A stretch of DNA of 44,680 nt from Firmicutes bacterium HGW-Firmicutes-12 (GCA_002841595.1 PHAD01000004.1:1-44680), one strand, 5' to 3'; numbered from the stretch's first letter, positions 15,446 to 44,068 are shown. The notes: generated by a model from the sequence alone, not told the origin. Translations and numbers: made by a program.

Positions 15446-15497
15446 AGTCGATCCCTCCTAAATCACTTTATCCATAATCACCTTTACCATTTAAAGG

Positions 15498-15513: not shown

Positions 15514-15539
15514 ACCCACAAAGTTAATATATTGGGCTT

Positions 15540-15647: not shown

Positions 15648-15686
15648 AAAAAGCCTCTAAACGTATAGACGTCTAAAGACTTTTTT
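15646..15686 (-). terminator. Intrinsic terminator of the sigma-54 activator gene
   Basis: On the minus strand a 17-pair stem (three G-U pairs) runs from AAAAAAGTCTTTAGACG to its partner ending in GGCTTTTTTT. The loop is 6 bases and the T-run is clear. It starts 11 bases after the activator stop codon and separates it from the operon promoter. Confidence 0.85.
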
Positions 15687-15696
15687 ATAGCTACCT

Positions 15697-17187: not shown

Positions 17188-17254
17188 CTCTTCACCTCAC
17201 TTTTTATTCCTTACTGATTTATATCTTATCCTTCTTAATTATATCGCTTGTTTT

Positions 17255-17286
17255 TTGTAATTTTCTCAAATATGAGAAAATTACAA
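17255..17286. promoter_or_regulatory. Perfect 14-base inverted repeat upstream of the sigma-54 activator (candidate operator)
   Basis: Arms TTGTAATTTTCTCA and TGAGAAAATTACAA are separated by the four bases AATA. It lies 68 bases upstream of the activator start at 17187, in the AT-rich gap between importer and activator. It is not followed by a T-run and overlaps no gene. Its core TTTTCTCA recurs in the upstream region of the operon promoter, which suggests a shared binding site for the activator. Confidence 0.6.
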
Positions 17287-17391
17287 TTTCTCGCGTGCTA
17301 AAAATATTCTTTAAAATTGCATTTAATATTTTAACATATTCTGCATTTATATGAAATATCCTTCAGACATTTCGGCAACATACCTTAAACG

Positions 17392-17440
17392 AAAAAGGAA
17401 GTATCCCAAAACTACTTTTTTAAGTAGCCAGTGATACTCC
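17392..17440 (-). terminator. Intrinsic terminator of the glycine betaine/carnitine importer operon
   Basis: On the minus strand a long stem (outer pairing GGAGTATC with GATACTTCC, inner CTACTT with AAGTAG) is followed by TTTTTC. It lies 18 bases after the permease stop codon. Confidence 0.75.
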
Positions 17441-17457
17441 CCAATTATCCAATCTAT

Positions 17458-18306
17458 CTATGTAGCTTTTTTACTAGTTTCCTGCTTTTTAGCTATGTTT
17501 TCTGTCATACGGTCTAAAATTATAGCCAAAATAACTATACCTACTCCGCCTACCGTTCCCATGCCAATATCAAGCATCTGCATTGACCTCAAAACTACCA
17601 AGCCCAATCCACCGGCTCCGATCATAGATGCAATAACTGTCATAGCTAACGACATCATGATACACTGGTTTATCCCCGCCATAATAGTAGGTAAAGCCAG
17701 TGGTAGTTGCACGTCTACTAGAGTTTGCCATCTGCTAGAGCCAAAGGCCCGTGCCGCCTCCACCATTTCTCGTGAAACCTCACGTATGCCTAGATTAGTT
17801 AGACGTACTGCCGGAGGCATGGCAAATATCATTGTTGCTACCAAAGCTGCTACCTTACCCATACCAAAGAACATTACGGCTGGAATTAGATAAACAAAGC
17901 TTGGGAGCGTTTGCATAAAATCCAATACGGGACGCAAGATACGTTCAACCATATCATTTTGTGATGCTATAATCCCCATCGGTATGCCGAATAACAACGA
18001 TACAGCAGTCCCAGATAGAGCTAGTACGATGGTGGCCATTGTTTCTTCCCATACCTGCATACCGAAGGTTACGAGAAGACCTAATATAGCAAATACAGCC
18101 AGGCGGGTGCCGGCAAACCACCATACTATTAACCCTATTACAAGTATAACAACTGCTTCCGGTGGCCACAGTAAAGCTACTTCAAGCTTTCTGATAATAA
18201 TCTCTAAAAATGAGCTTAAAGACCGCAGTACGGGGCTGATATGAAAACTAACTACTTCAAAGATAGCATTAACCCAATCTGCAAGAGGGATAACAAAATC
18301 AATCAT
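17458..18306 (-). CDS. opuAB: Glycine betaine/carnitine ABC transporter, permease
   Basis: A 282-residue binding-protein-dependent permease of the ProW/OpuAB type. It has several membrane helices and the EAA-loop region EAARAFGSSRWQTLVDVQLPLALPTI (about 185-210), which docks to the ATPase. ALSGTAVSLLFGIPMG and MQTLPSFVYLIPAVMFFGMG are family blocks. The ATG at 18306 overlaps the ATPase stop codon and follows GGAGGGGGG, so it is preferred to the longer frame opening at 18327. It is the last gene of the three-gene importer operon and is followed by a terminator. Uptake of glycine betaine, carnitine or related quaternary amines is expected. Confidence 0.92.
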   Translation of the reverse strand: MIDFVIPLADWVNAIFEVVSFHISPVLRSLSSFLEIIIRKLEVALLWPPEAVVILVIGLIVWWFAGTRLAVFAILGLLVTFGMQVWEETMATIVLALSGTAVSLLFGIPMGIIASQNDMVERILRPVLDFMQTLPSFVYLIPAVMFFGMGKVAALVATMIFAMPPAVRLTNLGIREVSREMVEAARAFGSSRWQTLVDVQLPLALPTIMAGINQCIMMSLAMTVIASMIGAGGLGLVVLRSMQMLDIGMGTVGGVGIVILAIILDRMTENIAKKQETSKKAT

Positions 18307-19495
18307 TAACTGTGCCCCCCTCCGCAAGTTTAGCCATCACTGAACCACGTACAATGACACCTAATAATTTATTTTCTTCGTTTACTACAGCAAGGGGTCC
18401 ACTTTTCCCGGACAACAGCGCAAATATTTCCTTTAAAGGGGTATCTGGAAGTACAGATGACACATCACGCTGCAATATCTTCTCAAGGTTGTTTTGATTG
18501 TTTTCGACAGCTTGTAATGCATCATCAGCCATAACAAGCCCCTGTAGGCGGCGTTCTTTGTCAACTGCAAAAACGCTTGAAATACCGTTTTCTTGCATAC
18601 TACGTAATGCTCCCCGGGGTCCATCTTTGGAAGATATAACCACCACTACTGACTTCTTCATTACCATTTCCGCCGTGAGAACACGTGATCGGTCAACATC
18701 CTCAACAAACTTCTGTACATAATTAGTAGCCGGGGACATTAGTATTTCTTCCGGGGTGCCTATTTGTACAATAGCTCCATCTTTCATTAATGCAATTCTA
18801 TCCCCTAGCTTTAGGGCTTCATCAAGATCATGAGTAATAAATACAATGGTCCTGTTCATTTTGTTTTGCAATTCTAATAGCTCATTTTGCATTTCTTTCC
18901 TGATCAGGGGATCCAGAGCACTAAACGCTTCATCCATCAAAAGTATCTCCGGTTCAGTAGCCAAAGCTCGGGCCAATCCGACCCGCTGTTGCATACCCCC
19001 GCTGAGCTGAACTGGATAGGATGCTTCCCATCCTTTTAACCCCACAAGTTCTAAAGCTTCATAGGCCTTTTTTTCACGCTCTTCTAAAGAAAGACCCCTA
19101 ATTTTAAGGCCATAGGCAGCATTTTCAAGCACAGTTTTATGAGGGAGAATAGCAAAACTTTGGAACACCATACTTATTTTTTTACGACGTAATTCCTGTA
19201 ATTCACTCTGGTCCATACTCGTAACATCCTTACCATCAATAATGACACTCCCTGAAGTCGGTTCAATAAGACGATTCAGACAACGAATTAAGGTGGATTT
19301 ACCACTACCGGAAAGGCCCATTACTACAAAGGATTCACCTGCTTTAACCGTAAAAGAAACATCATTAACAGCAACCGTCTGTCCTGTTTCTTCCTTTACT
19401 TGATTACTGGTGTATCCTTTTTTTATAAGTTCCAGAGCTTTTTCTCGGTGTTTGCCAAATATTTTATATAGATTGCGTACCTCAATAATATTCAT
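18299..19495 (-). CDS. opuAA: Glycine betaine/carnitine ABC transporter, ATP-binding subunit with CBS domains
   Basis: A 398-residue ProV/OpuAA-type ATPase. Walker A is GLSGSGKST (about residue 60), the signature motif LSGGMQQRVGLARAL and Walker B EILLMDEAFSALDP. The N-terminal MNIIEVRNLYKIFGKH and EETGQTVAVNDVSF segments are typical of this subfamily. Two CBS domains occupy about 270-395. In related transporters these sense ionic strength or nucleotides, so osmotic gating is possible. The pairing with a catabolic operon suggests nutrient uptake as well as osmoprotection. Its stop overlaps the permease start. Confidence 0.95.
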   Translation of the reverse strand: MNIIEVRNLYKIFGKHREKALELIKKGYTSNQVKEETGQTVAVNDVSFTVKAGESFVVMGLSGSGKSTLIRCLNRLIEPTSGSVIIDGKDVTSMDQSELQELRRKKISMVFQSFAILPHKTVLENAAYGLKIRGLSLEEREKKAYEALELVGLKGWEASYPVQLSGGMQQRVGLARALATEPEILLMDEAFSALDPLIRKEMQNELLELQNKMNRTIVFITHDLDEALKLGDRIALMKDGAIVQIGTPEEILMSPATNYVQKFVEDVDRSRVLTAEMVMKKSVVVVISSKDGPRGALRSMQENGISSVFAVDKERRLQGLVMADDALQAVENNQNNLEKILQRDVSSVLPDTPLKEIFALLSGKSGPLAVVNEENKLLGVIVRGSVMAKLAEGGTVND

Positions 19496-19526
19496 ACTAA
19501 ATACCTTCCTTTGGCCATTAAAAAAC

Positions 19527-20393
19527 TTATCCCTTTAACCATGTATCAATTTTGTCTCTGTTTTTTTCAATCCAATCCTTAGCCAAAGCTTCTATTTCCT
19601 TATCCTCTTCTTGATATGCGAAAAGAAACTCCTCTGTATCATCAATGCTCATCTCAAAGTTTTTACAATAGTTATACATATCAGGCGCATAATCATTAAA
19701 TCCTTGACGTATGCCCCAGTATTCACTGTCTAGTTCCCAGTAACCATCAGGATCAGCTAAAATTTCAACATCATACTTACGAATCATGGTATGAGGACGC
19801 CATCCTAAGAAAACAATTGGTTCCTCATGCTTAATCGCATAATCCGCTTCGGCCATCATTGACGCCATTGTCCCCGATACTAATTCAAGATCCAATCCGT
19901 AGCCGTCAATAATCTCCTGACTGACCAGCATCATACCCGAGCCAGGTTCAAAGCCAATAAGCTTACCATTAACTAATTCTTCATTTCCCTTAAGATCGGC
20001 AATAGAATCTACTTCAACATATTTCGGTATGACCCATCCAACAGGTGCGTCAGAAAAAATAGCACTTCCTAACTCATACTTGTCACTATACTTCTCATGG
20101 TATGTCTCATGAATAGATGGTAACCATACTCCTGGCCAGATATCAGTATCTCCTTGTACCAACGCCATAAACATAAAACCTATATCTCCTTGTACTACTT
20201 CAACTTTATACCCCTGTTCAGTTGCAATTTGCTTAGTTATTTCAACAAAAGGAACTTCATAATCATACGGTGCTTGACCAATTTTAATTACCTTATTCTT
20301 TTCGGTGTCGGCTCCACCGCCACAACCTACTACCAGCACCACACTTACAATCAAAAAACACAGCATTACAATAAATCTTTTTAAATTTCTCAT
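19527..20393 (-). CDS. opuAC: Glycine betaine/carnitine ABC transporter, substrate-binding lipoprotein
   Basis: A 288-residue OpuAC-family binding protein. Residues 1-24 form a lipoprotein signal peptide ending in the lipobox-like VVGCGGG, so it should be lipid-anchored outside the membrane. Tryptophans in DIWPGVWLP (about residue 83) and FLGWRPHTM (about 195) fit the aromatic cage that binds a trimethylammonium group. ADLKG and GFEPGSGMM are further family features. It opens the importer operon with TAGGAGGTTTTTAA before ATG. Whether betaine or carnitine is preferred cannot be read directly; the neighbouring catabolic operon argues for carnitine or a similar compound. Confidence 0.93.
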   Translation of the reverse strand: MRNLKRFIVMLCFLIVSVVLVVGCGGGADTEKNKVIKIGQAPYDYEVPFVEITKQIATEQGYKVEVVQGDIGFMFMALVQGDTDIWPGVWLPSIHETYHEKYSDKYELGSAIFSDAPVGWVIPKYVEVDSIADLKGNEELVNGKLIGFEPGSGMMLVSQEIIDGYGLDLELVSGTMASMMAEADYAIKHEEPIVFLGWRPHTMIRKYDVEILADPDGYWELDSEYWGIRQGFNDYAPDMYNYCKNFEMSIDDTEEFLFAYQEEDKEIEALAKDWIEKNRDKIDTWLKG

Positions 20394-25909: not shown

Positions 25910-26851
25910 TTACATTAAACTTATGACAATACTGACAATTGGAATTGTCGCTAAACTAAATAATGTCGTAACAAATATTACTTCTGTCGCATATTCATCA
26001 TCAGACCCATAGGCCTTTGCTACCATAGCGATGGTAGTCATTGCGGGAAGTCCGACTATTAGAGTTAAGATTGTTCTTGGTATCTCCGGCAGAAAAAAAC
26101 CTAAGAGATAATAGACGATTACCGGAATAATCAACATTTTGACAACAGTTAAAACAAAGATACTCGGTTTCTTTAAGGCTTTTCTTATCGATACATAAAA
26201 AAGCGAGCCTCCTAGATAAATCAGTGTTAAATACTTACTCGTCCCACCTATACCGATAATTATATTCATAATAAGATCAGGTACTGGTATTCTAAAAACC
26301 ATAATAATAAAAGCAATAACTAAAGCAGTTGTAGTAGGATTTATCATGTTTTTAACTGCACCCAACGGGTTAGCTTGATTTTGATGCCTACTGCATAAAT
26401 AAACCCCAAAGGTCCATAAAAGGGCCATATCTATTAGGGTATACACTGATATACATACGTTTGCTATGGGATCTTTAAAAATAGCCTGAATTAGGGGTAT
26501 CCCCATAAACCCCATATTGCCAAAGCTTGCAAGTGCAATAAACATACTAGCGGTCTTGCCTTGGAGCTTGCAAAGTTTGCTAGTTATTATTGCAGTGAAG
26601 ATGAGAATCGCATAACATAATACTACCCCTATCGCAAATCTACCACTAATTAGAAACTCTTCAAGTGAAACGCCGCTTCCAGCAACAACACTAAAAATCA
26701 AGGCTGGAAGAATAATCTTAATTATAAGATTAGAGAGGTTTTTTAATGCTTCTTCTGTGAGAACACTTGTTTTTGCTGCAATCATACCTATAAACATAAG
26801 TATCGCAAATATTATGATTTGATTTAGTATTACACTTAGCTGTCCAGTCAT
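25910..26851 (-). CDS. AEC-family (auxin efflux carrier-like) transporter
   Basis: A 313-residue membrane protein with about ten hydrophobic helices, typical of the AEC/MdcF family of organic-acid and amino-acid-type carriers. SFGNMGFMGIPLIQAIF (about 107-123) is the conserved discontinuous-helix region. The C-terminal GLPAMTTIAMVAKAYGSDDEYATEVIFVTT block matches the family. The ATG at 26851 follows AAGAAGGTTATATAA. It stands alone between the haloperoxidase remnant and the FLEET locus. A second AEC gene lies at 34179-35072. The substrate is unknown. Confidence 0.88.
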   Translation of the reverse strand: MTGQLSVILNQIIIFAILMFIGMIAAKTSVLTEEALKNLSNLIIKIILPALIFSVVAGSGVSLEEFLISGRFAIGVVLCYAILIFTAIITSKLCKLQGKTASMFIALASFGNMGFMGIPLIQAIFKDPIANVCISVYTLIDMALLWTFGVYLCSRHQNQANPLGAVKNMINPTTTALVIAFIIMVFRIPVPDLIMNIIIGIGGTSKYLTLIYLGGSLFYVSIRKALKKPSIFVLTVVKMLIIPVIVYYLLGFFLPEIPRTILTLIVGLPAMTTIAMVAKAYGSDDEYATEVIFVTTLFSLATIPIVSIVISLM

Positions 26852-26937: not shown

Positions 26938-28032
26938 TTATTGCGCTGAAGCCCCTTTTGACTTCATCACTTCTTTCATGCCTTGGGTAGATTTAATTAC
27001 ACCGTCAGGGAAAATCCAAAGCGCCTCCAGACCCTCTATGCTCTCCACTAATTTGTTACTTTCTTCATAGGATAACAAAAAGACAGCAGTTGACATTATA
27101 TCGGCAATACCAGAATCCTCGACCATAACTGTTACAGCACGAAAATGGTTTGCCGGCATTAGGGTCTTAGGGTCTATCAGATGATGCAGGATATTCCCAT
27201 CAACTACATAGAAACGCTGATAGTCACCACTAGTAACCAAAGAGGTGTCTCTGATATATACCGTATCAAGTGGTTCATCATCAGGAATTAGGGCATTTCC
27301 CTGAGGATCTTGAATACCGATTCCCCATTTGTTTCGAATTCCATCATAGGGTTTTCCTATGATGCGTACATTACCACCACAGCTTATTATACATGATTTA
27401 ATTCCTGCTTCCATTAGTTCCCTTGTCACTATTTCGGTGGCAAATCCTTTGGCTACAGCACCAACATCGACACTCATGCCATGCTCCGACAAAAAGATTG
27501 ACTTTATTTCTTCATCTACAATAACCTTGTCAAGGTCTGTAAGGTTTGCGGCTGTCTGCAGCTCTTCTTGTGTGGGGATAGCGGCATGCTCAGGGTCACT
27601 TTTCCCTTCCTCACGATAATCATGCCAGATAGAAAGCACAGGTCCTAATGCAATATTAAAGGTTTCATTTGTTTTCTTATACCATTCCTTTGAAAATAGA
27701 ATAAGATCAATTATTTCCTGAGATACAATAACCGGTTGTATACCCGCATTATCATTTATAGTCTTGATATTATTTATACCAGAATAATCGTTGTATTTAT
27801 CAAACATTTTATGCAGTTCTTCATAACGACCCTGGGCTTTATTAACATATTGCTCGAATTCATCTTCACTACGGGTATAACCAATAAATTGAATTACTGT
27901 ATCAAAAGCACCAAAGAATTCATAACTATACTTTTCATAACCGCTAGCTTCATCTGATGCTTGCTTTTCTTTATTTGCACATCCTGAAATGAGCAGGATG
28001 ACTGCTAGTAATACAATAAATACTTTTTTCAT
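26938..28032 (-). CDS. fmnB: FAD:protein FMN transferase (ApbE/FmnB), lipoprotein
   Basis: A 364-residue ApbE-family enzyme that attaches FMN from FAD to threonines of exported redox proteins. The lipoprotein signal MKKVFIVLLAVILLISGCA places it outside the membrane. Catalytic-region hallmarks are FFGAFDTV, LGPVLSIWHDYRE, MSVDVGAVAKGFATEIV and CIISCGGNVRIIG. The ATG at 28032 follows AAGGTGATGATA and is preferred to the longer frame opening at 28077. It is the last gene of the FLEET cluster. A terminator after the pplA-like gene separates it from the rest, so it may have its own promoter. In Listeria, FmnB flavinylates PplA during extracellular electron transfer. Confidence 0.93.
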   Translation of the reverse strand: MKKVFIVLLAVILLISGCANKEKQASDEASGYEKYSYEFFGAFDTVIQFIGYTRSEDEFEQYVNKAQGRYEELHKMFDKYNDYSGINNIKTINDNAGIQPVIVSQEIIDLILFSKEWYKKTNETFNIALGPVLSIWHDYREEGKSDPEHAAIPTQEELQTAANLTDLDKVIVDEEIKSIFLSEHGMSVDVGAVAKGFATEIVTRELMEAGIKSCIISCGGNVRIIGKPYDGIRNKWGIGIQDPQGNALIPDDEPLDTVYIRDTSLVTSGDYQRFYVVDGNILHHLIDPKTLMPANHFRAVTVMVEDSGIADIMSTAVFLLSYEESNKLVESIEGLEALWIFPDGVIKSTQGMKEVMKSKGASAQ

Positions 28033-28116
28033 TATCATCACCTTATACATTCCAAATAAGCTTGAGTGAAAACTCACTTCTTCTCTTGTTCACTTTATAC
28101 TCTCCATTAAGAGCAT

Positions 28117-28153
28117 GTAAAAACCCCTTCTTTTTTGTAGAAGAGGTTTTTAC
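28117..28153 (-). terminator. Intrinsic terminator between the pplA-like gene and fmnB
   Basis: On the minus strand GTAAAAACCTCTTC pairs with GAAGGGGTTTTTAC (one G-U pair) around a 9-base loop, and the right arm supplies the TTTTT. It ends the upstream FLEET transcript and may only partly reduce read-through into fmnB. Confidence 0.75.
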
Positions 28154-28177
28154 TATTTCAAATATTATTACAAATTA

Positions 28178-28717
28178 CTACTTAGCATTAGCATAAGCTT
28201 CTGCAACAGCAGCTATATAATCCTGCACAGTTATGGTGACCTTTGAGTTAAGTTCCGCTACATCAGGAACACTTGGATGGTTATCATCTACTTGCTTAAC
28301 TTTCAGCGCCTTAACTTCATCAACTGTTTTACCAATCATCCACGCTTCCAACTCATCAATTTGTTGATACCATTCCTTACCAATCTTAGATGCTTTGATA
28401 AGGCCATACTTATCTCCAAGTTCAACTTTTGTCTGTGGTGCAACAGTCTTGTCTGTAGTAACTATGCCGCTTTCATCAAAATTAACTTTAACCTGGGCAT
28501 TGTCAATCTCCACAGCAATGATTTTACCATCTGCATCAAAGGTAGCCGCAGCCATAACGGCATCCACTTGGGCAAGTCCTTCCTTTTCTGCAGTTGCATC
28601 GGCGGACTTTTGAATAGAGATAACGTGGCCAAGGCCGGTTTTGGTTGCTGCAGTATCTGCTCCACATCCTGAAAGCAATAATAAGGCAGCCAAAGGTACA
28701 ATAATTAGTTTTTTCAT
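28178..28717 (-). CDS. Small exported lipoprotein in the pplA position of a FLEET locus
   Basis: A 179-residue protein with a lipoprotein signal (MKKLIIVPLAALLLLSGCGA). The mature part has a single domain of about 150 residues with beta-strand-like segments (AAATFDADGKIIAVEIDNAQVKV) and a helical C-terminus (VQDYIAAVAEAYANAK). The pattern of a GKI-type strand followed by a TVQDYIAAV helix recalls FMN-binding domains and the extracellular flavoprotein PplA. The usual flavin attachment motif [S/T]GA[S/T] is not present, so covalent flavinylation is uncertain. Position between dmkB and fmnB supports a role as the extracytoplasmic electron carrier. An alternative is a solute-binding or structural lipoprotein. 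The start follows GAGGAGGAGAATTA. Confidence 0.75.
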   Translation of the reverse strand: MKKLIIVPLAALLLLSGCGADTAATKTGLGHVISIQKSADATAEKEGLAQVDAVMAAATFDADGKIIAVEIDNAQVKVNFDESGIVTTDKTVAPQTKVELGDKYGLIKASKIGKEWYQQIDELEAWMIGKTVDEVKALKVKQVDDNHPSVPDVAELNSKVTITVQDYIAAVAEAYANAK

Positions 28718-28770
28718 TAATTCTCCTCCTCGTATTTTTTTATTGTAATTATTTTTACAATAGTTAAAAC

Positions 28771-29745
28771 TTATGCAGTAGCTGTAAATGAGCTATCTCC
28801 TAACCATAATACGGCCTCTTCCATAGCACGGCGTTGTTTCGTATCAGGAAGTCCCTCTAATAATCCTAAGCACTTATTGATATATCTATTCTTGATTCGT
28901 CTTGATTCTGCGGGTCCTCCTGCAGCTACAATAGCTGGTATCAGGGATGCTACATCTCCTTGACCACTAAAGAAACTCTCTAATTGTTTTCTTACAGATG
29001 TATTACGATAGGCTGCCAGAATTACCGGCAAAGTAATTACACCTTCTTTTAGGTCACGTATAACCGGTTTTCCTATCTTATCTTTATCGAATTCAGATGG
29101 TTCAATATCTAATAGATCATCACGTATCTGAAAAGCCGTACCAAAATACATTCCAAATCTCCCTAGGACTTTAACTTGCTCCTCACTGCAACCTGCAGAA
29201 AAAGCACCTAAAGAACAAGAAGCCGAGAGCAATATGCCCGTTTTTCGCATGATACGTTTGAGGTATTCTCTAACAGTAGGGACCTTGTTACGCCCCAAAT
29301 ACTGTTCAACCTCGCCCACACACATCGACTCTAGAGCTTGTGCAACTTCTTTTAATTTTTCTGCTGGCAATCCAGCTTCCGACAACATCATCACTGCTTT
29401 CACCAACATGTAGTCACCGGCGTATACTGCAAGATTGATACCATGCTTTGCCGAGACCGATGGTTGTCCTCTTCTGGTTTCCGCATTGTCGATTATATCG
29501 TCGTGCACTAAGGTTGCAGAGTGAAGAGTTTCAAGAGCTGCTGCCAGCGGAATAATCTTATCTCGCGAATATTCACCAAACATACCAGATAATATGGCAA
29601 GAATTGGTCTTAATCTCTTACCCCCGGCATTTATAGTTTTTTGCGAAGCTTCAGTCAAAATCCCGCCCTTTTGAGGGAATTTTTCCATAAGATAAGCTTC
29701 CAAAGCTTCCAGTTCGTTATTTATAAAAGAATAGCTTTCTAACAA
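28771..29745 (-). CDS. dmkB: Polyprenyl diphosphate synthase (DmkB, FLEET quinone side chain)
   Basis: A 324-residue trans-isoprenyl diphosphate synthase. The first aspartate-rich motif is in LVHDDIIDNAETRRG (about residue 84) and the second in FQIRDDLLDIE (about 210). GGKRLRPILAIL near residue 42 is the IPP-binding block. It should make the long prenyl chain for a demethylmenaquinone dedicated to extracellular electron transfer. It starts with TTG (29745) after GGAG. It lies between ndh2 and the pplA-like gene in the leftward operon. A function in general menaquinone synthesis is the alternative. Confidence 0.9.
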   Translation of the reverse strand: MLESYSFINNELEALEAYLMEKFPQKGGILTEASQKTINAGGKRLRPILAILSGMFGEYSRDKIIPLAAALETLHSATLVHDDIIDNAETRRGQPSVSAKHGINLAVYAGDYMLVKAVMMLSEAGLPAEKLKEVAQALESMCVGEVEQYLGRNKVPTVREYLKRIMRKTGILLSASCSLGAFSAGCSEEQVKVLGRFGMYFGTAFQIRDDLLDIEPSEFDKDKIGKPVIRDLKEGVITLPVILAAYRNTSVRKQLESFFSGQGDVASLIPAIVAAGGPAESRRIKNRYINKCLGLLEGLPDTKQRRAMEEAVLWLGDSSFTATA

Positions 29746-29777
29746 GATGCTTCAACTCCAATTCTAGGCTAGTATTA

Positions 29778-31679
29778 CTATTCCGGTCTATCAAAGCTTC
29801 TTTTGAATATCAGGCTAAACCTATGATTTTTCCAAAGGTATTCCCACACATTATTTAGATATGGTATAAGGTAATAGTCCACACCAAAGGCACGCCCTGC
29901 TCCGCCCATACAGGCAATCGCAGCAAAAATCATCCACCAGGTTTTCTCATAGATACCGGTCGTCATGATGAAATTAGCAGTCAAGGCAATTGATGCAAGA
30001 GCAGCCAAAAAGGTGAAAGTACCGGACAGGAGCGCAAGACCTAAAACAATTTCGGCTACGACAACGCCAATCTGGAAGACCATCTGGGTCGTATCGTTTG
30101 CTAATACTATATTTTCTATAAACCAATTCACTGGTCCAAAATCGATACGGAAAATCATATCTGCTGTCTTCTCCAAAATGATATTTATGAATCCCAAGTC
30201 AAGATTGAAAAGTGTCTGTACGGTCGCTGCCGCTCCTTCTACAGCTCCTTCTGTGGCTTCTGCCCCTGCCAGCGGTGTCGCGGCAGTATTGGCATCAGTC
30301 CCGGTTGCATATCCAAAAAAGGTTGCAAGCTTAGGAGACAAGAACCAACCTTCGCCTATTTTCTTTATTCCTTCATATAGCCAGGCCCACCCTAGAAACA
30401 ATCGTACAGGAACTAACCACCAAGCCTGTATTCTGGTTGACCAATGCTGTTCAATTATAAGCTTTCTTTGGCGACGTTCTAAAAGTTCATGGTATAGGTA
30501 GCGAGCTACTCCCCAGAAACCGGTAATCTCCCAGAGATAATGAATATTAACCATGAACTTCATAATTATCGAAAGCCAGACAGGTAATTCGCGGCCCATG
30601 ATATCGGATACTGCAAAAAAGTTTCCTACAGAAACCATAGTACCGTGCATTTTCACTGTAACTATTTCCGGCTCTTGTGAACGGATAGATTTTAGGATGT
30701 TTTTTGCTGCTCCACGACCGGTTTGGATAGCATTCTCTACCATAGCGGGCTGGGGTTTGCCCTGTTCATCCATAGTAGCGCCTATATCACCCACGGCATA
30801 TACATTCTCGAATTTGGTTCGACAGAATTCATCTACCTTAAGCCTCTTAGGGCCACCTAGTTTCTCCATTGCCATTTCATCTACCTCTTCAGCAGAACGC
30901 ACTCCGGCTGCCCATATTAAGGTTTTTGTATCAATAAACTGTTCCCCTGTAGAAAATCCTTCTGCATTAACCTCTTTGATAGGGGTGTTAAGCAAGATCT
31001 CCACACCCAGTTTCTTTAAATACTTATGAGCTTTCTTAGCGTTCTTCTCGGAGAGATTACTAAGAATTCGCGACATCATGTCCACTATGATTAGACGAAT
31101 TTCCCTATTTTTAATATCATGCTCCTTAGCCAAATCCTTCGTCCATAAAGCAAGTTCACCTATCATCTCTACACCAGTAAAACCTGCACCGCCCACAACA
31201 AAGGTTAACAGGCGTTTACGTTCTTGTTCATTTTCTTCATGTTCTGCTAAGATAAAGCAGTTTTTAATATGCTCCCGAATACGCACTGCATCATCAAACG
31301 ACCACAGAGTAAAGGCATTCTCCTTTAGTCCTGGTATACCAAAGAAATTCGGAGTGCTTCCCATCGCCATTACCAAGTAATCATACGAGAATTCCTTATT
31401 TTTTGAATGCAGCTTGTTATTCTCAAAGTCAAAACTCTTGATTTCATCTTTGATAACCTTAACGCCTGTATACTTGAATATTCGACCTAACGGAATACGA
31501 ATAGCTTCTTCGGATACACGGTTGCCAGCAGTTTCATGCAGTTCAGTTAGAAGGGTGTGGTACTCATTTTTATCTACCAGGGTAATCTCCACTTCATCCT
31601 TCTTCCGCTTCTTGTTTAGAGTCAGCGCGGCTTCAATACCTGCATAGCCCGCCCCTACAATTAGTACTTTTTTAACCAT
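29778..31679 (-). CDS. ndh2: Type II NADH:quinone oxidoreductase with C-terminal membrane extension (Ndh2, FLEET type)
   Basis: A 633-residue flavoprotein. Residues 1-400 are an NDH-2 domain. The FAD site is VLIVGAGYAGIEAALTL, the NADH site VVGGAGFTGVEMIGEL (about 160), and FENVYAVGDIGATM closes the FAD fold. Residues about 410-633 add a DoxX-like membrane part (WWLVPVRLFLGWAWLYEGIKK, then several hydrophobic helices). A similar C-terminal extension distinguishes the Listeria Ndh2 used for extracellular electron transfer from ordinary NDH-2. It should pass electrons from NADH to the dmkA/dmkB-made quinone. The start follows AGGAG, and the gene sits between dmkA and dmkB. Confidence 0.93.
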   Translation of the reverse strand: MVKKVLIVGAGYAGIEAALTLNKKRKKDEVEITLVDKNEYHTLLTELHETAGNRVSEEAIRIPLGRIFKYTGVKVIKDEIKSFDFENNKLHSKNKEFSYDYLVMAMGSTPNFFGIPGLKENAFTLWSFDDAVRIREHIKNCFILAEHEENEQERKRLLTFVVGGAGFTGVEMIGELALWTKDLAKEHDIKNREIRLIIVDMMSRILSNLSEKNAKKAHKYLKKLGVEILLNTPIKEVNAEGFSTGEQFIDTKTLIWAAGVRSAEEVDEMAMEKLGGPKRLKVDEFCRTKFENVYAVGDIGATMDEQGKPQPAMVENAIQTGRGAAKNILKSIRSQEPEIVTVKMHGTMVSVGNFFAVSDIMGRELPVWLSIIMKFMVNIHYLWEITGFWGVARYLYHELLERRQRKLIIEQHWSTRIQAWWLVPVRLFLGWAWLYEGIKKIGEGWFLSPKLATFFGYATGTDANTAATPLAGAEATEGAVEGAAATVQTLFNLDLGFINIILEKTADMIFRIDFGPVNWFIENIVLANDTTQMVFQIGVVVAEIVLGLALLSGTFTFLAALASIALTANFIMTTGIYEKTWWMIFAAIACMGGAGRAFGVDYYLIPYLNNVWEYLWKNHRFSLIFKRSFDRPE

Positions 31680-31722
31680 GTGTTCTCTCCTATCTTTTAA
31701 TTAGTTATCAAATATCCAATAC

Positions 31723-32655
31723 TTATATAATCAATCCATCCAACAGGGCGGATGTTGCCAGGAGTACCCCCGTGAGAATATAAATCTGCACTGTGGCTGC
31801 ATTAGATTGGATCAGATTCTTAATGTTATCAAAATTCTCGGCACAGTTTTTGACGGCTTGCATTGCCTTTGGCATAGTCAAAAGAGCAAGTAACCAGATA
31901 GGATTAAATGTATAAATTGCAATGGCTATTATTGAAAGATAGTTCAAACCAAATATCCCGACATATACCTTGACTGCCTTTTTCTTGCCAAGTCGAACTA
32001 CCCAGTTTTTCTTACCTGCTGCTAAATCTGTTTCATAATCCGGAAACTGATTTATCCAAAGTACATTTACTATCAGAAAGCCTATTGGTAAGGAAACTAG
32101 AAGCGGTAAAACATCAAATCGATTTGTCATAACTACATACATTCCATTTAATATCAACGGACCAAAGGAAAGCCCAACTGCTATCTCACCGAATCCACGA
32201 TAACAAAGCTTAAAAGGCGGCAGGCTATATATTACGGCAAGTAAAAATCCCGCCAAACCTATATAAATAACACTAAACTCTCTGAAAATAACAACATACA
32301 GACCGATAACTGCAGCTGCAGACATTGTGGCTATTCCGATTAACGCTGACTGACCCACTGTGAGTATCCCATCGACAATTGTTTTCTTTCCTCCAGAAAA
32401 AGGTGTCCTATGTTCATCATCTACACCTGGGTCAGCACCTGTAATATAGTCAATGCATTCATTAATGGCATTTTTGCCCACTTCAATTAAAAACACACCT
32501 AAAACAGCCACTAGAAACCAATAAGTATTGAACTCTCTATAAAAGCCAACAGCAATGATTGCACCTAAAAACATGGGAATGGCTGAAGCAATCCAAATCT
32601 TAGGATCTGCAACCTGCCAAAAACCTTTATTAACTCTTTTCCAGGTTATACTCAT
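31723..32655 (-). CDS. dmkA: UbiA/MenA-family prenyltransferase (DmkA, FLEET quinone synthesis)
   Basis: A 310-residue membrane prenyltransferase with about 8-9 helices. The first aspartate motif is NECIDYITGADPGVDDEH (about residues 65-82) and the second INQFPDYETDLAAGKKN (about 185-201). Both bind the Mg-prenyl diphosphate. It probably joins the DmkB product to 1,4-dihydroxy-2-naphthoate. The FLEET neighbours suggest a separate demethylmenaquinone pool. It lies between eetA and ndh2, and the start follows a GATGAGG-type site. An ordinary menA role remains possible because the rest of the genome is unseen. Confidence 0.9.
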   Translation of the reverse strand: MSITWKRVNKGFWQVADPKIWIASAIPMFLGAIIAVGFYREFNTYWFLVAVLGVFLIEVGKNAINECIDYITGADPGVDDEHRTPFSGGKKTIVDGILTVGQSALIGIATMSAAAVIGLYVVIFREFSVIYIGLAGFLLAVIYSLPPFKLCYRGFGEIAVGLSFGPLILNGMYVVMTNRFDVLPLLVSLPIGFLIVNVLWINQFPDYETDLAAGKKNWVVRLGKKKAVKVYVGIFGLNYLSIIAIAIYTFNPIWLLALLTMPKAMQAVKNCAENFDNIKNLIQSNAATVQIYILTGVLLATSALLDGLII

Positions 32656-32718
32656 TCCTCATCCCCCATTTTTAAAGAATTCTAGGTAAACCATTTTTCT
32701 ATTATTGACAAAACAACC

Positions 32719-33099
32719 TCATTTTACAATAATATCCACCTGGTCTTCTTCTAGATTATGCCCTTCTAGTTTAATAAAGGTCTTATTTGGTAGGCATACT
32801 GCAATCTCCCCAGGCCTTGTCAGCCATCCCGTATGAACACATACTGTATCTGGGCAATCAGATTCTTTAAAACGTGCCCTGCCATTCTCTGCAACTATGA
32901 CATTATGAAAATCATCGATAATCTGAATAGTGACTGGTTCATTAATACTGGCTAAGTTTATTCTTTGAATAACGCGATTATCTTGCACAACAACAGCAGT
33001 CATCTCCTCCGTTGTTGCATTAGTATAAAGCAGAGGGATAAAAAGGGCCGCAGTTAGAACAATTGCGATAATCACACAATCACCTATTTTCAGCTTCAT
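32719..33099 (-). CDS. eetA: NusG-domain-II-like protein EetA
   Basis: A 126-residue protein with one N-terminal membrane helix (CVIIAIVLTAALFIPLLY) and an outward NusG domain II-like beta domain. It carries CPDTVCVHTGWL, with two cysteines, and PGEIAVCLPNK, both typical of the EetA family found in extracellular electron transfer loci. It is the first gene of the leftward FLEET cluster. Its usual partner EetB is missing here. In Listeria, EetA and EetB are needed for electron transfer, but their exact chemistry is not settled. The ribosome binding site is weak. The 273-base gap upstream holds the nitroreductase terminator and AT-rich promoter-like sequence. Confidence 0.9.
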   Translation of the reverse strand: MKLKIGDCVIIAIVLTAALFIPLLYTNATTEEMTAVVVQDNRVIQRINLASINEPVTIQIIDDFHNVIVAENGRARFKESDCPDTVCVHTGWLTRPGEIAVCLPNKTFIKLEGHNLEEDQVDIIVK

Positions 33100-34178: not shown

Positions 34179-35072
34179 ATGTCTATGCTTTTTCAGGTCG
34201 TATTACCTGTCTTACTAATTTTCTCAACCGGCTACATTGGACAGAGAATATTCAAGCTACATATTAAGTCCATTTCTACAGCAGCCTTGTATCTTATGAC
34301 ACCGCCTTTAGTTTTTCGAACTTTTTATACTGTCAAAATAGATGCTATGTACCTAAACATTTTAATCTATTCCATTTTGCTTTCAGTGACGATAATTGCC
34401 TTCATAAAAATTGTAGCGTATTATCGAAACTACAGTAATTCTAAAACAAGTGCTTTAATCTCATCAACAGCATTTATGAATAACGGTAATTATGGAGCAC
34501 CGCTCATGCTATTTGCGTACGGTGCCTTGGCTTTTCAATATTCGGTGGCCATCATGATCTTGCACACAATTATCATGAGTACCCTTGGTTTGTATTACAT
34601 AGCCAAAGGAAACTTCAGTGTCAAAAAAGCCATATACTCAGTACTTAGAATGCCCATTATACATGCTGTGTACGTGGGTTTAATCTGGCAGTATTTGAAT
34701 CTTCCATTGCCGGAGAACATCTATAATGCTATCAGTATGGTGGCTGATGCATCCATACCCCTTGTTATGTTGGTTCTGGGTATGCAGCTTGCTGAAATTA
34801 AGCTTCTTAATATTCAATGGGGTATTGTATCCTTAGGAACAGTTACTAGACTACTTATCTCGCCAGCTATAGCTTATGTTATTACTTTAATATTACCTGT
34901 TGAGCCTTTACTGGCAAAAGTCATGATTGTCCTAGGAGCCATGCCTTCAGCCGCTATTATGGTAATGTATTCTATTGAATTTGACTGTGACCCTCAACTA
35001 GTTTCATCCATCACTTTAATCAGTACCATATTAAGTCTTGTTACACTTAGCATTTTACTTACTATACTTTAG
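34179..35072 (+). CDS. AEC-family (auxin efflux carrier-like) transporter, second copy
   Basis: A 297-residue membrane protein of the AEC family with about ten helices. Conserved features are STAFMNNGNYGAPLMLFAYG (about residues 95-114) and the C-terminal GAMPSAAIMVMYSIEFDCDPQLVSSITLIST block. It is clearly divergent in sequence from the AEC copy at 25910-26851, so it is not a recent duplicate. The start follows AAAGGATTGTATGC. It is the only rightward gene between the FLEET and Pel regions and ends at a shared terminator. The substrate is unknown. Confidence 0.88.
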   Translation: MSMLFQVVLPVLLIFSTGYIGQRIFKLHIKSISTAALYLMTPPLVFRTFYTVKIDAMYLNILIYSILLSVTIIAFIKIVAYYRNYSNSKTSALISSTAFMNNGNYGAPLMLFAYGALAFQYSVAIMILHTIIMSTLGLYYIAKGNFSVKKAIYSVLRMPIIHAVYVGLIWQYLNLPLPENIYNAISMVADASIPLVMLVLGMQLAEIKLLNIQWGIVSLGTVTRLLISPAIAYVITLILPVEPLLAKVMIVLGAMPSAAIMVMYSIEFDCDPQLVSSITLISTILSLVTLSILLTIL

Positions 35073-38435: not shown

Positions 38436-39884
38436 TTACTCTAATAACTCATATCTTTTTTCGACAAATGTGGTGATTAGACCTTTCTTTTTCACTTGAA
38501 ATAGTGGCTGTTTATTAAAAATAAAATAATCTAAATTACCTAGATAATACCTGGTTTGTGATAATCCTAAAAGTAGCGTAATAAAGGAGGCCATGAAAAA
38601 TCCAAAGCCATAATAAGACTCCCCCATAAGTATAGTGAAATATGTAAAGATTACATTCGTGAAAAAAAATGTTGCCGTAAGAATTAGGGCGCTCCTTCTC
38701 TCTTCAAAGTAAAGCATAATAATCATAAGTACTTGTATGATGGAAGTGTTAAAGGCCGCCAATACTAATAAATTGAAAATATTTATCGAAAACATTGATA
38801 GACTGAGTTTAGGCAATATAAAATTACCAACAATAATAAATAATATACAAAAGACAAAGTTAAGTTCTATTAGGTTACTCATCTCTGAGTTGAGTCCTTC
38901 AAGCATATGTTGTCTTGTGCTGTTTATTTCATTCAAGTTACCTTTGTAGACAATCTTTGAGATATATTCTTTATACCTATCATAGAAACTTACTTCCACA
39001 AATACCACAAAATAAATTATGGATGGGATGATAATTAGGAATGCATAAAAGTTTGGGACATCGTACAGCGGAGCATATACGAACACCCCGGCAACATAAT
39101 CTCCGAGTGGTCCTGACCAGATAATGAAATTATGGATAAATAATGCGGCAGTATAAAAAAAGCTTATAAAGAAAAGATCGTAATGCTTCTCAAAAGTCAT
39201 AAGAAAAAGAAAGTAACGATGACTTGAAGTATTGAAACGCTTTTGGATATTTAGCATCAGAAAAGCATTTATGAAAAGTATTCCCAAATTCATAATTAGC
39301 AGTAAGCCAATAATGATATGAATATATATGTTTGCTAATAAGACATAGCTACTAGCTACTACTATAACAAAACCCACTAGGAAGGAGTAAACAATACTCA
39401 TATAATCTTGTAATGCCGAAAGATAGGCCTGTAAAAGCCACATAATCATTAATTGCATAAATAAAACATATGCTGCAATCTTTATCTCCATTTCCAAAGG
39501 TGCATTCCATAAAAATATAATAGGAAGAAGTGAACCAAGCAATAGTACAATTGATAATATTCCATAAAGGGAGGGTACGATATCTTCATAGGCGTTCTCA
39601 AAGACCTTATCGGCAATGAAACGCGTAATAACCATACAAAAGCCACTTGTAAAAATTTGCGAGAATATAAATGAGTAGACAGTGATTATAAGAAATAACT
39701 GTCTTATATAATAAGGTTGATCTAGTACTTTTAAAAATAACTGAACTAAAACAAGCATTACCATGACAGTCACAAACGGTCCAACTGTTATGACGGCTGA
39801 AAAAAGACAACCCTTAACAATGCTCATAACCCCAGTTTTTTTAAATATTTTCTTTAATTCAAAACCTATTCCCGCCATCGTCAC
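38436..39884 (-). CDS. pelG: Pel polysaccharide transporter PelG (MATE/MOP-type membrane protein)
   Basis: A 482-residue membrane protein with about 12 helices. The N-terminus MAGIGFELKKIFKKTGVMS, followed by a glycine-containing helix GPFVTVMVMLVLVQ, is the typical PelG opening. A cytoplasmic-type charged loop (about 320-345) separates the two helix bundles, and the basic C-terminus ends TTFVEKRYELLE. PelG is the inner-membrane translocator of the Pel exopolysaccharide, working with PelD, PelE and PelF. It is the last pel gene, 53 bases downstream of pelF. Confidence 0.9.
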   Translation of the reverse strand: MTMAGIGFELKKIFKKTGVMSIVKGCLFSAVITVGPFVTVMVMLVLVQLFLKVLDQPYYIRQLFLIITVYSFIFSQIFTSGFCMVITRFIADKVFENAYEDIVPSLYGILSIVLLLGSLLPIIFLWNAPLEMEIKIAAYVLFMQLMIMWLLQAYLSALQDYMSIVYSFLVGFVIVVASSYVLLANIYIHIIIGLLLIMNLGILFINAFLMLNIQKRFNTSSHRYFLFLMTFEKHYDLFFISFFYTAALFIHNFIIWSGPLGDYVAGVFVYAPLYDVPNFYAFLIIIPSIIYFVVFVEVSFYDRYKEYISKIVYKGNLNEINSTRQHMLEGLNSEMSNLIELNFVFCILFIIVGNFILPKLSLSMFSINIFNLLVLAAFNTSIIQVLMIIMLYFEERRSALILTATFFFTNVIFTYFTILMGESYYGFGFFMASFITLLLGLSQTRYYLGNLDYFIFNKQPLFQVKKKGLITTFVEKRYELLE

Positions 39885-39937
39885 TCCCCCTTTCTCGAAA
39901 ATTCAATTTAATTAAGCTACGGGTTAGTTTTTTACTT

Positions 39938-41374
39938 TTATCTACCTTTAGATTCTTGATATAAGGATGCATAAATGTCTTTATATTTCTCGATGACCTG
40001 CTCTTGTATATACAAGTTTGACAAACGATTAAAACCGTTTTGCCCAAGCTTTTTACGTAATCCTTCATCCTTTATCAATTTTATCAACGCCTTGGCAAAG
40101 CCTTTATAATCCATAACCGGAACGATTATACCAGCATATCCGTAAGTATCCCCTGCTCCATCATCAGTACCATACATTAGATCTCGACAGTTCCCTACAT
40201 CTGTACAGACATAGGGGATAGCACATGCCATGCCTTCTAAAACAGCTATTGGATTACTTTCACTAATACTGCTTAAGGCTAAAATATCCATTTTACCAAC
40301 GTAATCAAGCGTTTTAATTGTTCCTGTGAAGAAAACATCTTTCCTGCCTAATCTTTGAACTAGTTTTTTACATTGTTCATAATATTCCTCATCTTCATCG
40401 ATCGGTCCCATAATATATAGCTTAGCTTCGGGAATCTCATCTTTTACTACGGCAAAACTATGGATCAATGTCATGACATCTTTTATCGGCACAACCCTGA
40501 TCAATGCCCCAATATTTATAGAATTATCTTTTTCGTCTTTTCTAGCTATATCCTTGAAATTTTTTATACTAATCCCATTAGGTATAATTTCAATTTTCTT
40601 TGGGTCACATCCGTAATCCACCTGCAGCTTCCGATTCTTTTCAAAAAGAGTAATTACTTTATCGGCTCTATCATAAGTGAGCTGCGTTGCATTATAAAAA
40701 AATTGTATCCATATTCTTTTAAAATATCCTTTAATCCAGTCCAGCTTAATTATATCCTCTTCTCTTTCACGAAAATATATCCCGTGTTCTGTTAAAAGAA
40801 AAGGCTTTTTATAGACAATTGAGGCCATGCTCCCTATTATCCCAGCATAACCTGTGGAGACACTATGATACACGTCGGCCTCAGGAATATCATGTTTGAC
40901 AATATGAAACAACGGTAGCAGCACAGCACGTACTGTCCAAAAATATTCGGTAAAGGGTGTCGTTGCATGCTCTACCCCATATGCCTTTTGTATAGTCCTA
41001 AAAAAGTCAAAGCTTAGAAAAAAATTTACAACATTATCAATCTTCTTTGTACGAAACAATAAAAAGAATTGGTCCCAGTTAATCTTACCACCAGAGATCA
41101 ACTTAGAGAGATTATCTATATCTGCTTGTGGAAGCTTATATTTCTTCCCATACTTTCCGGAAACATTTAAGATGCTATCTAAGAAAACCTCCTCAATCTT
41201 TGTCACATTTGGAGGTAGCTTATACTTATAATTCCCTTTCTCTTTCTCCTGGGCTCCTATGGAATAAATAATAAATTCTTGATCCGGCATATTAGAGATG
41301 ATCGTGTTTACCCAACTAGAAACTCCACCCACAACGTACGGATAACTACCTTCAATTATCATGCACACTTTCAT
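39938..41374 (-). CDS. pelF: Pel polysaccharide glycosyltransferase PelF (GT4 family)
   Basis: A 478-residue cytosolic GT4 glycosyltransferase. The N-terminal acceptor-side motif is GSYPYVVGGVSSWVNTII, followed by LTEHGIYFREREEDI (about residue 210), a PelF hallmark. The nucleotide-sugar site has the EX7E-type SISESNPIAVLEGMACAIPYV (about 380) and CTDVGNCRDLM. PelF polymerises Pel from UDP-sugars. Its ATG overlaps the stop of the deacetylase gene (TAATG), which indicates translational coupling. The spacing and order are those of Gram-positive pel operons. Confidence 0.95.
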   Translation of the reverse strand: MKVCMIIEGSYPYVVGGVSSWVNTIISNMPDQEFIIYSIGAQEKEKGNYKYKLPPNVTKIEEVFLDSILNVSGKYGKKYKLPQADIDNLSKLISGGKINWDQFFLLFRTKKIDNVVNFFLSFDFFRTIQKAYGVEHATTPFTEYFWTVRAVLLPLFHIVKHDIPEADVYHSVSTGYAGIIGSMASIVYKKPFLLTEHGIYFREREEDIIKLDWIKGYFKRIWIQFFYNATQLTYDRADKVITLFEKNRKLQVDYGCDPKKIEIIPNGISIKNFKDIARKDEKDNSINIGALIRVVPIKDVMTLIHSFAVVKDEIPEAKLYIMGPIDEDEEYYEQCKKLVQRLGRKDVFFTGTIKTLDYVGKMDILALSSISESNPIAVLEGMACAIPYVCTDVGNCRDLMYGTDDGAGDTYGYAGIIVPVMDYKGFAKALIKLIKDEGLRKKLGQNGFNRLSNLYIQEQVIEKYKDIYASLYQESKGR

Positions 41375-43194
41375 TAGGTATCACTACTTTCATATTCAAT
41401 ACGTACATCCGTATCGTTTACTTGTAGAAGATAAGAATTATCATCTATGAGCCGAAACTCGCAACCCTTTGTTTTTGTTATCTTTCTATTTGTTTTTAGG
41501 ATGAAAAAGACATGTTCTTTAAAACCACTTACTCTCATGTGGATACTATCTTTATCTTCTTCATAGGCATATTCACTTAATAAATAGTCTTCGAGATACT
41601 GTATTCCTGATGACATAGCACCACTTCTCAACCAGGGATATCTTTGATAAAAGTCTTCTAAAACAGTTGTGAATTCATCATAAAGTAATGACCAAGTTTT
41701 ACCCTCGCTTCTTTGGTCATCCATTATATCGTCAGGATGTATGAAGTGAGTATAAATACCCACTGAGTTTATGGCATTGAATACGCTCCAGTCATTGTAG
41801 CGATCCTTTAAAAAGCCACTGGCAACTCGTGGTATTTCCCATACTCCATCACTACTTAGTTCAAACTCCTGTACGTAAGAATCCGTATCTGCCTCAGGAA
41901 GATATACCGAAGCAATAATTTTTATATCTGGCACCGCTTGTAATAGGGCGCGCCGACCTTCTGGAGATATGATATTGGACGGAGGGATATATACACGAAA
42001 ACTATAATTTGGATATGCCTTTTTCGCGCACTCCTCCGTAAAACGCAAAGCCTGGGTTATGGCATCTTCACTAACCCAAGGCCGATAATTCAAATCTGTA
42101 GAAAGATTATCCACAGTAAGAGGTTGGTGGTTATAGCCATGAATACCAATCTCTCCGCCACTTTTTAATATTTCCCTCCCGAAGATTTTCATATACTCTT
42201 TAAAACTTGGATCATCCATACTATACGGGGAGTTAACCTGGTTGTTGTACGTAACTATATATGCTGTAGTAAATATGAAATTATTAATATTTGCTGCTTT
42301 CAATAGATCAGGCCACCATATCTGCCGATAGAATTGTGGCAAACTCATATTGTATTCAGCTAGAAAATCCGGTGAGGCTATCGATGATATAGGTGCAGGA
42401 AAATCATCAATATTTAAACTTTTAAAATTTGCAATAGGATATAAATAAGTCTCTTTGCCTACCCCTAGCACCCCAGTAATTAAGCCCCTGTTAACTTTCT
42501 CAGTCAGATCAGTACCATTATAAAAGATTATTCTTCCCAACCCATATTTTGTTTCCCAAAGCAAGGGATTGTCGTTATTTGAGGTTAAGTGCACTTTTAC
42601 ATCTTGATTAAGCTTAACATTTAGGGATGATGTCGCTAACCATTCTTCATCAAATATCAGCCCTTTTCCTTGAATAAATATATTGGATAAGAACTTCATT
42701 CCACTGTTATCAATATATTCACTACAACTGCTTATACCCATAGCATTTAAATGTTTTTCTAAGACTGAATTAATATCAGGTCGAGACATTATATATAGAA
42801 AAGCACCCTGCTTTACCTGTTCAAGGAGTTCTTCCAACATATCCTCGTTTTCTATACTATCTAAAGTTAGGACTAGATTATTAGCAGTACTTTGATCATT
42901 GACAAATTCCTGGTTTGATAATACCTTTACCTTCTTTTTCATGTACTCTAGGGTTTTTGATATATTATTTAATAGCTCTATACTGCTTTCACTCTGCGGA
43001 TCATAGATGATATGATACAATTCAATTTCTGGCATCGAAGATACTGGGACATCACTGGTTTTATGCATTTTCCCTGTACTTAATTCATTCGTATTTTTAA
43101 CAAATATCGTATAACCGTCAGCCATATTAAATTGAAAGAATACTCCTAGTACTAAAACAAATAATAAAATTGCTAATATAGAATGCTTAAACAT
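41374..43194 (-). CDS. PelA-like polysaccharide deacetylase (DUF2194-type), membrane-anchored
   Basis: A protein of about 606 residues with an N-terminal membrane helix (FKHSILAILLFVLVLGVFF) and an extracellular body. Residues about 60-250 are an amidotransferase-like region. Residues about 265-530 are a NodB-type deacetylase: the metal-binding aspartate pair in LNIDDFPAPI, the histidines in GGEIGIHGYNHQP, and a closing THFIHPDD. There is no glycoside hydrolase domain, unlike Pseudomonas PelA, which matches the shorter deacetylase-only PelA of Bacillus-type pel operons. It should partially deacetylate Pel. The ATG at 43194 lies just after GGTGGT; an in-frame ATG at 43206 is the alternative. 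It overlaps pelE and pelF. Confidence 0.85.
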   Translation of the reverse strand: MFKHSILAILLFVLVLGVFFQFNMADGYTIFVKNTNELSTGKMHKTSDVPVSSMPEIELYHIIYDPQSESSIELLNNISKTLEYMKKKVKVLSNQEFVNDQSTANNLVLTLDSIENEDMLEELLEQVKQGAFLYIMSRPDINSVLEKHLNAMGISSCSEYIDNSGMKFLSNIFIQGKGLIFDEEWLATSSLNVKLNQDVKVHLTSNNDNPLLWETKYGLGRIIFYNGTDLTEKVNRGLITGVLGVGKETYLYPIANFKSLNIDDFPAPISSIASPDFLAEYNMSLPQFYRQIWWPDLLKAANINNFIFTTAYIVTYNNQVNSPYSMDDPSFKEYMKIFGREILKSGGEIGIHGYNHQPLTVDNLSTDLNYRPWVSEDAITQALRFTEECAKKAYPNYSFRVYIPPSNIISPEGRRALLQAVPDIKIIASVYLPEADTDSYVQEFELSSDGVWEIPRVASGFLKDRYNDWSVFNAINSVGIYTHFIHPDDIMDDQRSEGKTWSLLYDEFTTVLEDFYQRYPWLRSGAMSSGIQYLEDYLLSEYAYEEDKDSIHMRVSGFKEHVFFILKTNRKITKTKGCEFRLIDDNSYLLQVNDTDVRIEYESSDT

Positions 43195-44068
43195 TGTTAC
43201 CACCATCCCAAAACCTTACTATATCCAGTGTGGTAGCTGAAAATTCCACAGTAGAGTTTTTTAACTCAGTCATTTTATCATAAAACTTACCTGCGTTTTT
43301 CGTATTATAATACAGCTTCAGAAAATGTATATACGGTTCCTCTTCTTCTGGGTAACATGTCTGAAATTCCAAACAGCATTCTTCTGCCCGTTGATATTCG
43401 TGCAATGACAAATCTAAATTTATTTTTTCAATAAAATAGTGTTTCTCTGGCATTGGATATGACAGCATAATCTCAAGAGCATTGTTATAGTTATCCTTAA
43501 CTGTTTTTAGTATGAATTCCTTTTCATTTTCAAAGCCTAAGTACTCATTCAGCACTTGTATATATGCTTTGAGATACTCTCGATTTCGGAGATTGCTCTT
43601 AACGAGTCCTTCTTTTTCATAAATTTCCATTTCAATTTTACGTTTTTTACTCTGCAGTGCGGTTGCCCCATAATGGGCAACTTCTGGATCTTTATCCCGC
43701 AAGGTATCAGACATATTCTGATAACCTTGGTCTGCTTTTTTGAACATCATTTCTATCATTAATCTTCTTTTCGTCATTCTATCTTCTAATGAAAGAATTT
43801 CATGGAAAGGCAGTACATTTATTTCCTTATCCATTCTTTCCATAATGACCGAATTATCATCGGCTTGTCTTTCATCTAGTTGCATTAACGCATTTTCATT
43901 AGTCCATTGTGTTTTGAATAAAAGTAAATAGAAAAAACCTATAAAAGGAAGAAATAATGCAATGATAAATTCACAAAAAGCGCGCTCCGGTTTTTTGTCC
44001 TTTATTGAATAAATAGGAAATAACAGTACTAACAAAACATAAGTCATAAATAAGATTATTTTCACCAT
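43187..44068 (-). CDS. pelE: PelE-like membrane protein with helical repeat domain
   Basis: A 293-residue protein. Two N-terminal membrane helices (IILFMTYVLLVLLFPIYS and FCEFIIALFLPFIGFFYLLLF) are followed by a mostly helical cytoplasmic domain with TPR-like repeats (RDKDPEVAHYGATALQSKKRK, then LSLHEYQRAEECCLEF). In the pel system PelE bridges PelD and the synthase PelF. Its identification rests on topology and its place between pelD and the deacetylase gene rather than on strong motifs. The ATG at 44068 overlaps the pelD stop region and follows GGTGAATG. Its own stop overlaps the deacetylase start. Confidence 0.8.
   Translation of the reverse strand: MVKIILFMTYVLLVLLFPIYSIKDKKPERAFCEFIIALFLPFIGFFYLLLFKTQWTNENALMQLDERQADDNSVIMERMDKEINVLPFHEILSLEDRMTKRRLMIEMMFKKADQGYQNMSDTLRDKDPEVAHYGATALQSKKRKIEMEIYEKEGLVKSNLRNREYLKAYIQVLNEYLGFENEKEFILKTVKDNYNNALEIMLSYPMPEKHYFIEKINLDLSLHEYQRAEECCLEFQTCYPEEEEPYIHFLKLYYNTKNAGKFYDKMTELKNSTVEFSATTLDIVRFWDGGNNV

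Follow-up and report, generated by a model that had tools for sequence, protein, structure and literature searches.

The six genes on the minus strand between positions 26,938 and 33,099 of the window (the whole stretch of 44,680 nucleotides analysed here) form a FLEET locus, that is, one for flavin-based extracellular electron transfer, and we favour, with a probability of about 0.6, the reading that a lipoprotein and the ApbE encoded beside it act there as an alternative flavin carrier within the full pathway proposed below. In the order of transcription the genes are eetA, dmkA, ndh2, dmkB, a lipoprotein gene and apbE (Table 1). The sequence-only reading had all six at these positions, on one strand and in this order, and it also chose the right class; in a tree, the window Ndh2 is nested among Ndh2 proteins encoded at FLEET loci. 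The reading overlooked two things: Pfam does not recognise the lipoprotein as a PplA, and the ApbE encoded with it falls in a distinct clade.

Table 1. Features of the six-gene cluster in transcription order, with positions counted from the first letter of the window
Feature	Position	Strand	Product and evidence
eetA	32719..33099	(-)	NusG domain II membrane protein, 126 aa; PF07009 (NusG_II/EetA), E 4e-30
dmkA	31723..32655	(-)	UbiA/MenA-type prenyltransferase, 310 aa; PF01040, E 1.6e-27
ndh2	29778..31679	(-)	EET-type type II NADH dehydrogenase with membrane C-terminal domain, 633 aa; PF07992 (Pyr_redox_2), 6e-45
dmkB	28771..29745	(-)	long-chain polyprenyl diphosphate synthase, 324 aa; PF00348, 3e-60
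lipoprotein gene	28178..28717	(-)	single-domain lipoprotein, FMN-bind2-like; motif ELNSKVT with predicted flavinylated Thr161; family alignment, profile chain to FMN_bind
motif codons	28235..28255	(-)	departed motif E-L-N-S-K-V-T, residues 155-161; taken from the sequence
hairpin	28116..28154	(-)	terminator-like, 15-bp, U-rich 3' side; between lipoprotein gene and apbE
apbE/fmnB	26938..28032	(-)	lipoprotein FMN transferase, diverged clade (TLMP loop); PF02424, 5e-65

The closest known system is the FLEET of Listeria monocytogenes and Lactiplantibacillus plantarum (Ndh2, DmkA, DmkB, EetA, EetB, PplA, FmnA and FmnB). As in those species, eetA, dmkA, an EET-type ndh2, dmkB, a lipoprotein gene and the gene for ApbE/FmnB are clustered, and EetB and ECF components are encoded in the genome. 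Unlike in those species, there is no Pfam-recognised PplA, the lipoprotein is a single domain with the motif ELNSKVT, the ApbE comes from another clade, eetB is unlinked and stands at an rnf cluster, and no separate FmnA was identified. The lack of a PF04205 match together with the motif ELNSKVT makes this a FLEET variant rather than a standard member. The variant is likely functional.

In the proposed pathway, Ndh2 would oxidise NADH and reduce a membrane (demethyl)menaquinone, itself made by DmkA and DmkB from DHNA that the cell would scavenge. The quinone electrons would then pass outward to the surface lipoprotein, which would stand in for PplA and carry FMN covalently on Thr161, the FMN being attached by the adjacent ApbE of the diverged clade. 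FAD would be exported by the EetB of an rnf-apbE-eetA-eetB cluster with the shared EcfA, EcfA' and EcfT, and the lipoprotein would hand its electrons to soluble or mineral acceptors.

The lipoprotein, its acceptor motif and its ApbE

The window lipoprotein has a lipobox (LLLSGC) and matches no Pfam family; PF04205 (FMN_bind) matches nothing in the window, and its best E value against 37 members of the lipoprotein family was 1.4. Two candidate identities were rejected, canonical PplA by Pfam and by the motif, and NCBIfam LytA by its score, 35 bits where the cutoff is 110. Most relatives have two domains in tandem, each about 155 aa long, and a single domain is found in the window protein and in that of locus L136. 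Before the last helix, 71 domains of the family share the motif [DE]-[LI]-x-[STA]-x-V-[TS]; in the family alignment the V is present in 71/71, the acceptor position is T in 70 and S in the remaining one, and the Gly-Ala at -2/-1 of the canonical D-x-x-[ST]-G-A-[ST] is replaced by x-V in every domain. In a model protein, changing G to A or A to V singly has been reported to leave about 50% of the flavinylation (PMC12052999). The open-access papers that we searched do not describe the departed motif, and other papers could do so.

Four further FLEET loci (L119, L120, L121 and L123), two of them in genomes of more than 6 Mb, encode lipoproteins with the motif DAI[ST]GV[ST], intermediate between the canonical form and the V-T form of the window family, with which they share a W-[HY]-x-Q signature. 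A profile comparison of the window family with these lipoproteins gave E 2e-8 and a score of 54, where 100 column shuffles never exceeded 19; the score was still 44 when the motif and the C-terminal helix were left out. The DAI[ST]GV[ST] lipoproteins in turn match canonical PplA-type FMN_bind at E 1e-16, and both steps of this chain put V-T on the flavinylated residue. Two further matches are weak: that of the window-family profile directly to canonical FMN_bind (E 0.001, probability 18-21%) and the first one in a profile search of the PDB, 2kzx_A (E 0.05), whose DAISGAT is aligned on the V-T motif. By the two-step profile chain, then, the window lipoprotein is homologous to the FMN_bind domain, and we predict that it is flavinylated at Thr161. 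Structure-based proof of an FMN_bind fold was also sought with two models, and led nowhere: Foldseek searches of the PDB with AlphaFold models of the single domain (pLDDT 84) and of a two-domain form (pLDDT 71), both built from shallow alignments, gave no significant match, FMN_bind included. The single-domain model places the Thr in the loop immediately before the C-terminal helix.

There is a resemblance to the FMN-bind2 proteins (PMC11334425), which likewise have a domain of about 160 aa that is usually paired, is invisible to Pfam FMN_bind, is encoded beside apbE and is regarded as a flavin carrier. The window copy differs in having one domain and a motif without Gly-Ala, and what ties it to FMN-bind2 is size, the paired domains of the family and the link through the DAISGV[ST] lipoproteins, not that paper's example sequences.

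Among the loci with enough contig, apbE lies directly 3' of the lipoprotein gene in 36 of 39; contrary to this general rule, the V-T lipoprotein genes at L068, L070 and L084 have no apbE within reach. A tree of 52 ApbEs, computed from sequence for rows picked by neighbourhood, unites those encoded beside V-T lipoproteins in one clade (support 100/100, branch 1.39). This clade excludes the ApbEs of PplA-type and GV[ST]-type FLEET loci, and also the ApbE encoded at the rnf cluster of the genome that holds the window, an enzyme of the canonical clade. By PplA-type we mean FLEET loci without a V-T or GV[ST] lipoprotein, and most, not all, of the PplA-type stretches examined hold a protein with the canonical D-x-x-[ST]-G-A-[ST]. 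At L119 and L120, the two DAI[ST]GV[ST] loci where an ApbE was found, that enzyme too is of the canonical clade.

All six catalytic residues of Listeria FmnB (K190, S257, R262, H273, D301 and T305; PMC8906456) are matched in the ApbE of the window clade, so the enzyme is probably active. After the catalytic His, ApbEs of the V-T clade read T-L-M-P, as against T-G-Y-P in other ApbEs, and they also carry an H-x-Y-R insertion. Thus the departed acceptor motif is accompanied by a departed loop near the active site, and the TLMP loop may be what reads the motif. On a broader scale, we would give even odds to the proposal that a family of envelope lipoproteins, widespread in Bacillota, is flavinylated at [DE]-[LI]-x-[STA]-x-V-T by a dedicated clade of TLMP-loop ApbEs, and that lipoprotein and ApbE together have replaced PplA-FmnB in FLEET at least twice. 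If this is true, ApbE specificity diverged along with its substrate, and enzyme-substrate recognition becomes directly testable. Surveys of flavin-based electron export depend on Pfam FMN_bind and D-x-x-[ST]-G-A-T, and would then be overlooking a carrier that about one in ten of the phylum's sampled genomes encodes.

The motif without G and A, and the negative fold searches, could alternatively mean that FLEET is present with a window lipoprotein that no longer binds flavin and has taken another role, the flavin carrier being some other protein. For instance, contig C121 (L007:4275-4718, minus strand) encodes a 147-aa membrane-anchored, Pfam-recognised FMN_bind protein with a canonical DVVTGAT. 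However, the neighbours of that gene are a response regulator, a histidine kinase and an ABC transporter ATPase, and not FLEET genes. Loss of function would preserve neither a Thr/Ser in 71/71 domains nor the adjacency of apbE, and the joint occurrence of departed motif and departed ApbE loop also argues against it, so that we consider such a loss unlikely and prefer a lipoprotein that still carries flavin.

The intergenic hairpin of Table 1 has a folding energy of -19.7 kcal/mol (z -4.6), a stability equalled in 0/200 shuffles; it is absent from the list of a consensus terminator scan. It is probably a partial terminator, which would lower expression of apbE relative to that of its lipoprotein substrate. 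The longest open reading frame of apbE begins with a GTG at 28077; the ATG at 28032 is the likelier start, and its product is MKKVFIVLLAVILLISGC.

Distribution and mosaic origin

Across the phylum Bacillota, 398 genomes were sampled, and 43 of them contain relatives of the V-T lipoprotein. Only 2 of the 25 genomes of the order have it, which makes lateral arrival likely and disfavours vertical inheritance, short of proof. A single-protein scan of genome contigs with the lipoprotein gave six loci, and most lipoprotein-apbE pairs stand without FLEET genes. Anaerovirgula multivorans, for one, has the pair with no FLEET genes close by in the part of its sequence examined.

The other genes of the locus point in a different direction from the pair. 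The Ndh2 tree places the window Ndh2 among those of PplA-type FLEET loci (99/95-96), together with those of one other genome, its exact sister being unsure because of a long branch; grouping it with the Ndh2 of other V-T FLEET loci is rejected (AU p 0.005). The window dmkA has 54-55% identity to the dmkA of the PplA-type loci L126 and L127 and 21-25% to others, and the best matches of eetA (by tblastn) and of dmkB are likewise to PplA-type FLEET loci. The window ApbE, on the other hand, is nested among those of stand-alone pairs (100/99). This makes the locus a mosaic of a PplA-type core and a pair recruited from elsewhere, and by these sequence comparisons it arose separately from the other V-T FLEET loci; the linkage of the lipoprotein-ApbE pair to FLEET cores has come about in no fewer than two distinct ways. 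In a check for mis-binning, the window contig had a GC content of 0.387 against 0.34-0.43 in the other contigs and a tetranucleotide correlation of 0.987, a weak test, as an unrelated A+T-rich genome reached 0.96.

The pair could instead be an independent flavoprotein module that has come to stand beside a FLEET core deprived of its PplA, with electrons that come from a source other than Ndh2 or quinol. Most pairs do stand alone, and that of the window groups with them. Nevertheless, the repeated joining to FLEET cores has been in the same direction each time, and the genome is without a Pfam-recognised PplA, which together lead us to hold an independent module improbable and to retain the pair as the carrier for the FLEET core beside it.

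Quinone supply and FAD export

In the window Ndh2, PDB type II NADH dehydrogenases match residues 1-392 only, of 633. The C-terminal part has a weak DoxD-like match (E 5e-4, under Pfam's cutoff), and this membrane domain aligns to its end with Ndh2 from six other FLEET loci. The dmkB product scores 254 bits with TIGR02748, which is below the cutoff of that model.

DmkA requires DHNA. With the MenB and MenD models, the genome yielded no more than relatives that fall far short of the cutoffs, at 162 bits (cutoff 343) and 63 bits (cutoff 244), respectively, and MqnA had no match in the genome; at a genome completeness of 96.8%, absence of the genes for DHNA synthesis is likely, yet not certain. 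In this the genome resembles L. plantarum, from which the scavenging of exogenous DHNA is known, and the cell probably obtains its quinone precursor in the same way. A MenG/UbiE-type methyltransferase passes the TIGR01934 cutoff in the genome. We note that the open frame of a MenG-like methyltransferase at L146:1498-2124 (contig C168) falls short of the model by about 30 residues at the N-terminus, which a frameshift or an odd start might explain. The outcome that the sequence-only reading had said would overturn it, namely genes serving only normal menaquinone synthesis, is very unlikely, also in a wider form in which the genes balance redox inside the cell or in the membrane and nothing outside accepts electrons. 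Although the methyltransferase means that menaquinone may be the end product, MenB, MenD and MqnA went undetected in a nearly complete genome, and to our knowledge neither the lipoprotein nor ApbE, EetA or the EET-type Ndh2 belongs to that pathway.

The same reading had described the locus as lacking eetB and had called for a genome-wide search for eetB and a riboflavin ECF transporter. The description holds for the locus and for the window, where no eetB was found, and fails for the genome, in which PF07456 matches at C20:15517-15951 (E 1.5e-44); absence of eetB from the genome is accordingly rejected. On contig C20 the genes rnfC, D, G, E, A and B are followed in one direction by apbE, eetA and eetB, the genome thus encoding a second ApbE and a second EetA, and genes for EcfA, EcfA' and EcfT lie together on contig C166, upstream of truA and a gene for an L13-like ribosomal protein. 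In Listeria EetB is the S-subunit that, with FmnA and shared ATPases, exports FAD, and in Clostridia Rnf is often accompanied by eetB (PMC9973259). Parts of an ECF-type FAD exporter are thus present in the genome, and the rnf-linked ApbE-EetA-EetB unit, a known arrangement (PMC9973259) that here lies outside the window, is by analogy probably a FAD export unit. Because eetB is encoded at the rnf cluster, a locus without it needs no new mechanism. More generally, a local absence of eetB needs a genome-wide check, since one EetB from an rnf cluster may serve several ApbEs.

Neighbouring genes in the window

Two transporters of the AEC family (Mem_trans), at 25910-26851 and 34179-35072, flank the six-gene cluster on opposite strands. 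The region 3793-20393 is possibly one of carnitine or betaine catabolism and encodes an OpuAC-type ABC transporter, a 3-hydroxyacyl-CoA dehydrogenase-like protein, a beta-keto acid cleavage enzyme, CoA transferases, a thiolase and sigma-54 activators; the link between carnitine and FLEET is one of gene neighbourhood only. At 38436-43206, PelG, a PelF-like glycosyltransferase and a DUF2194 protein are encoded in a region that resembles a Gram-positive exopolysaccharide export cluster.
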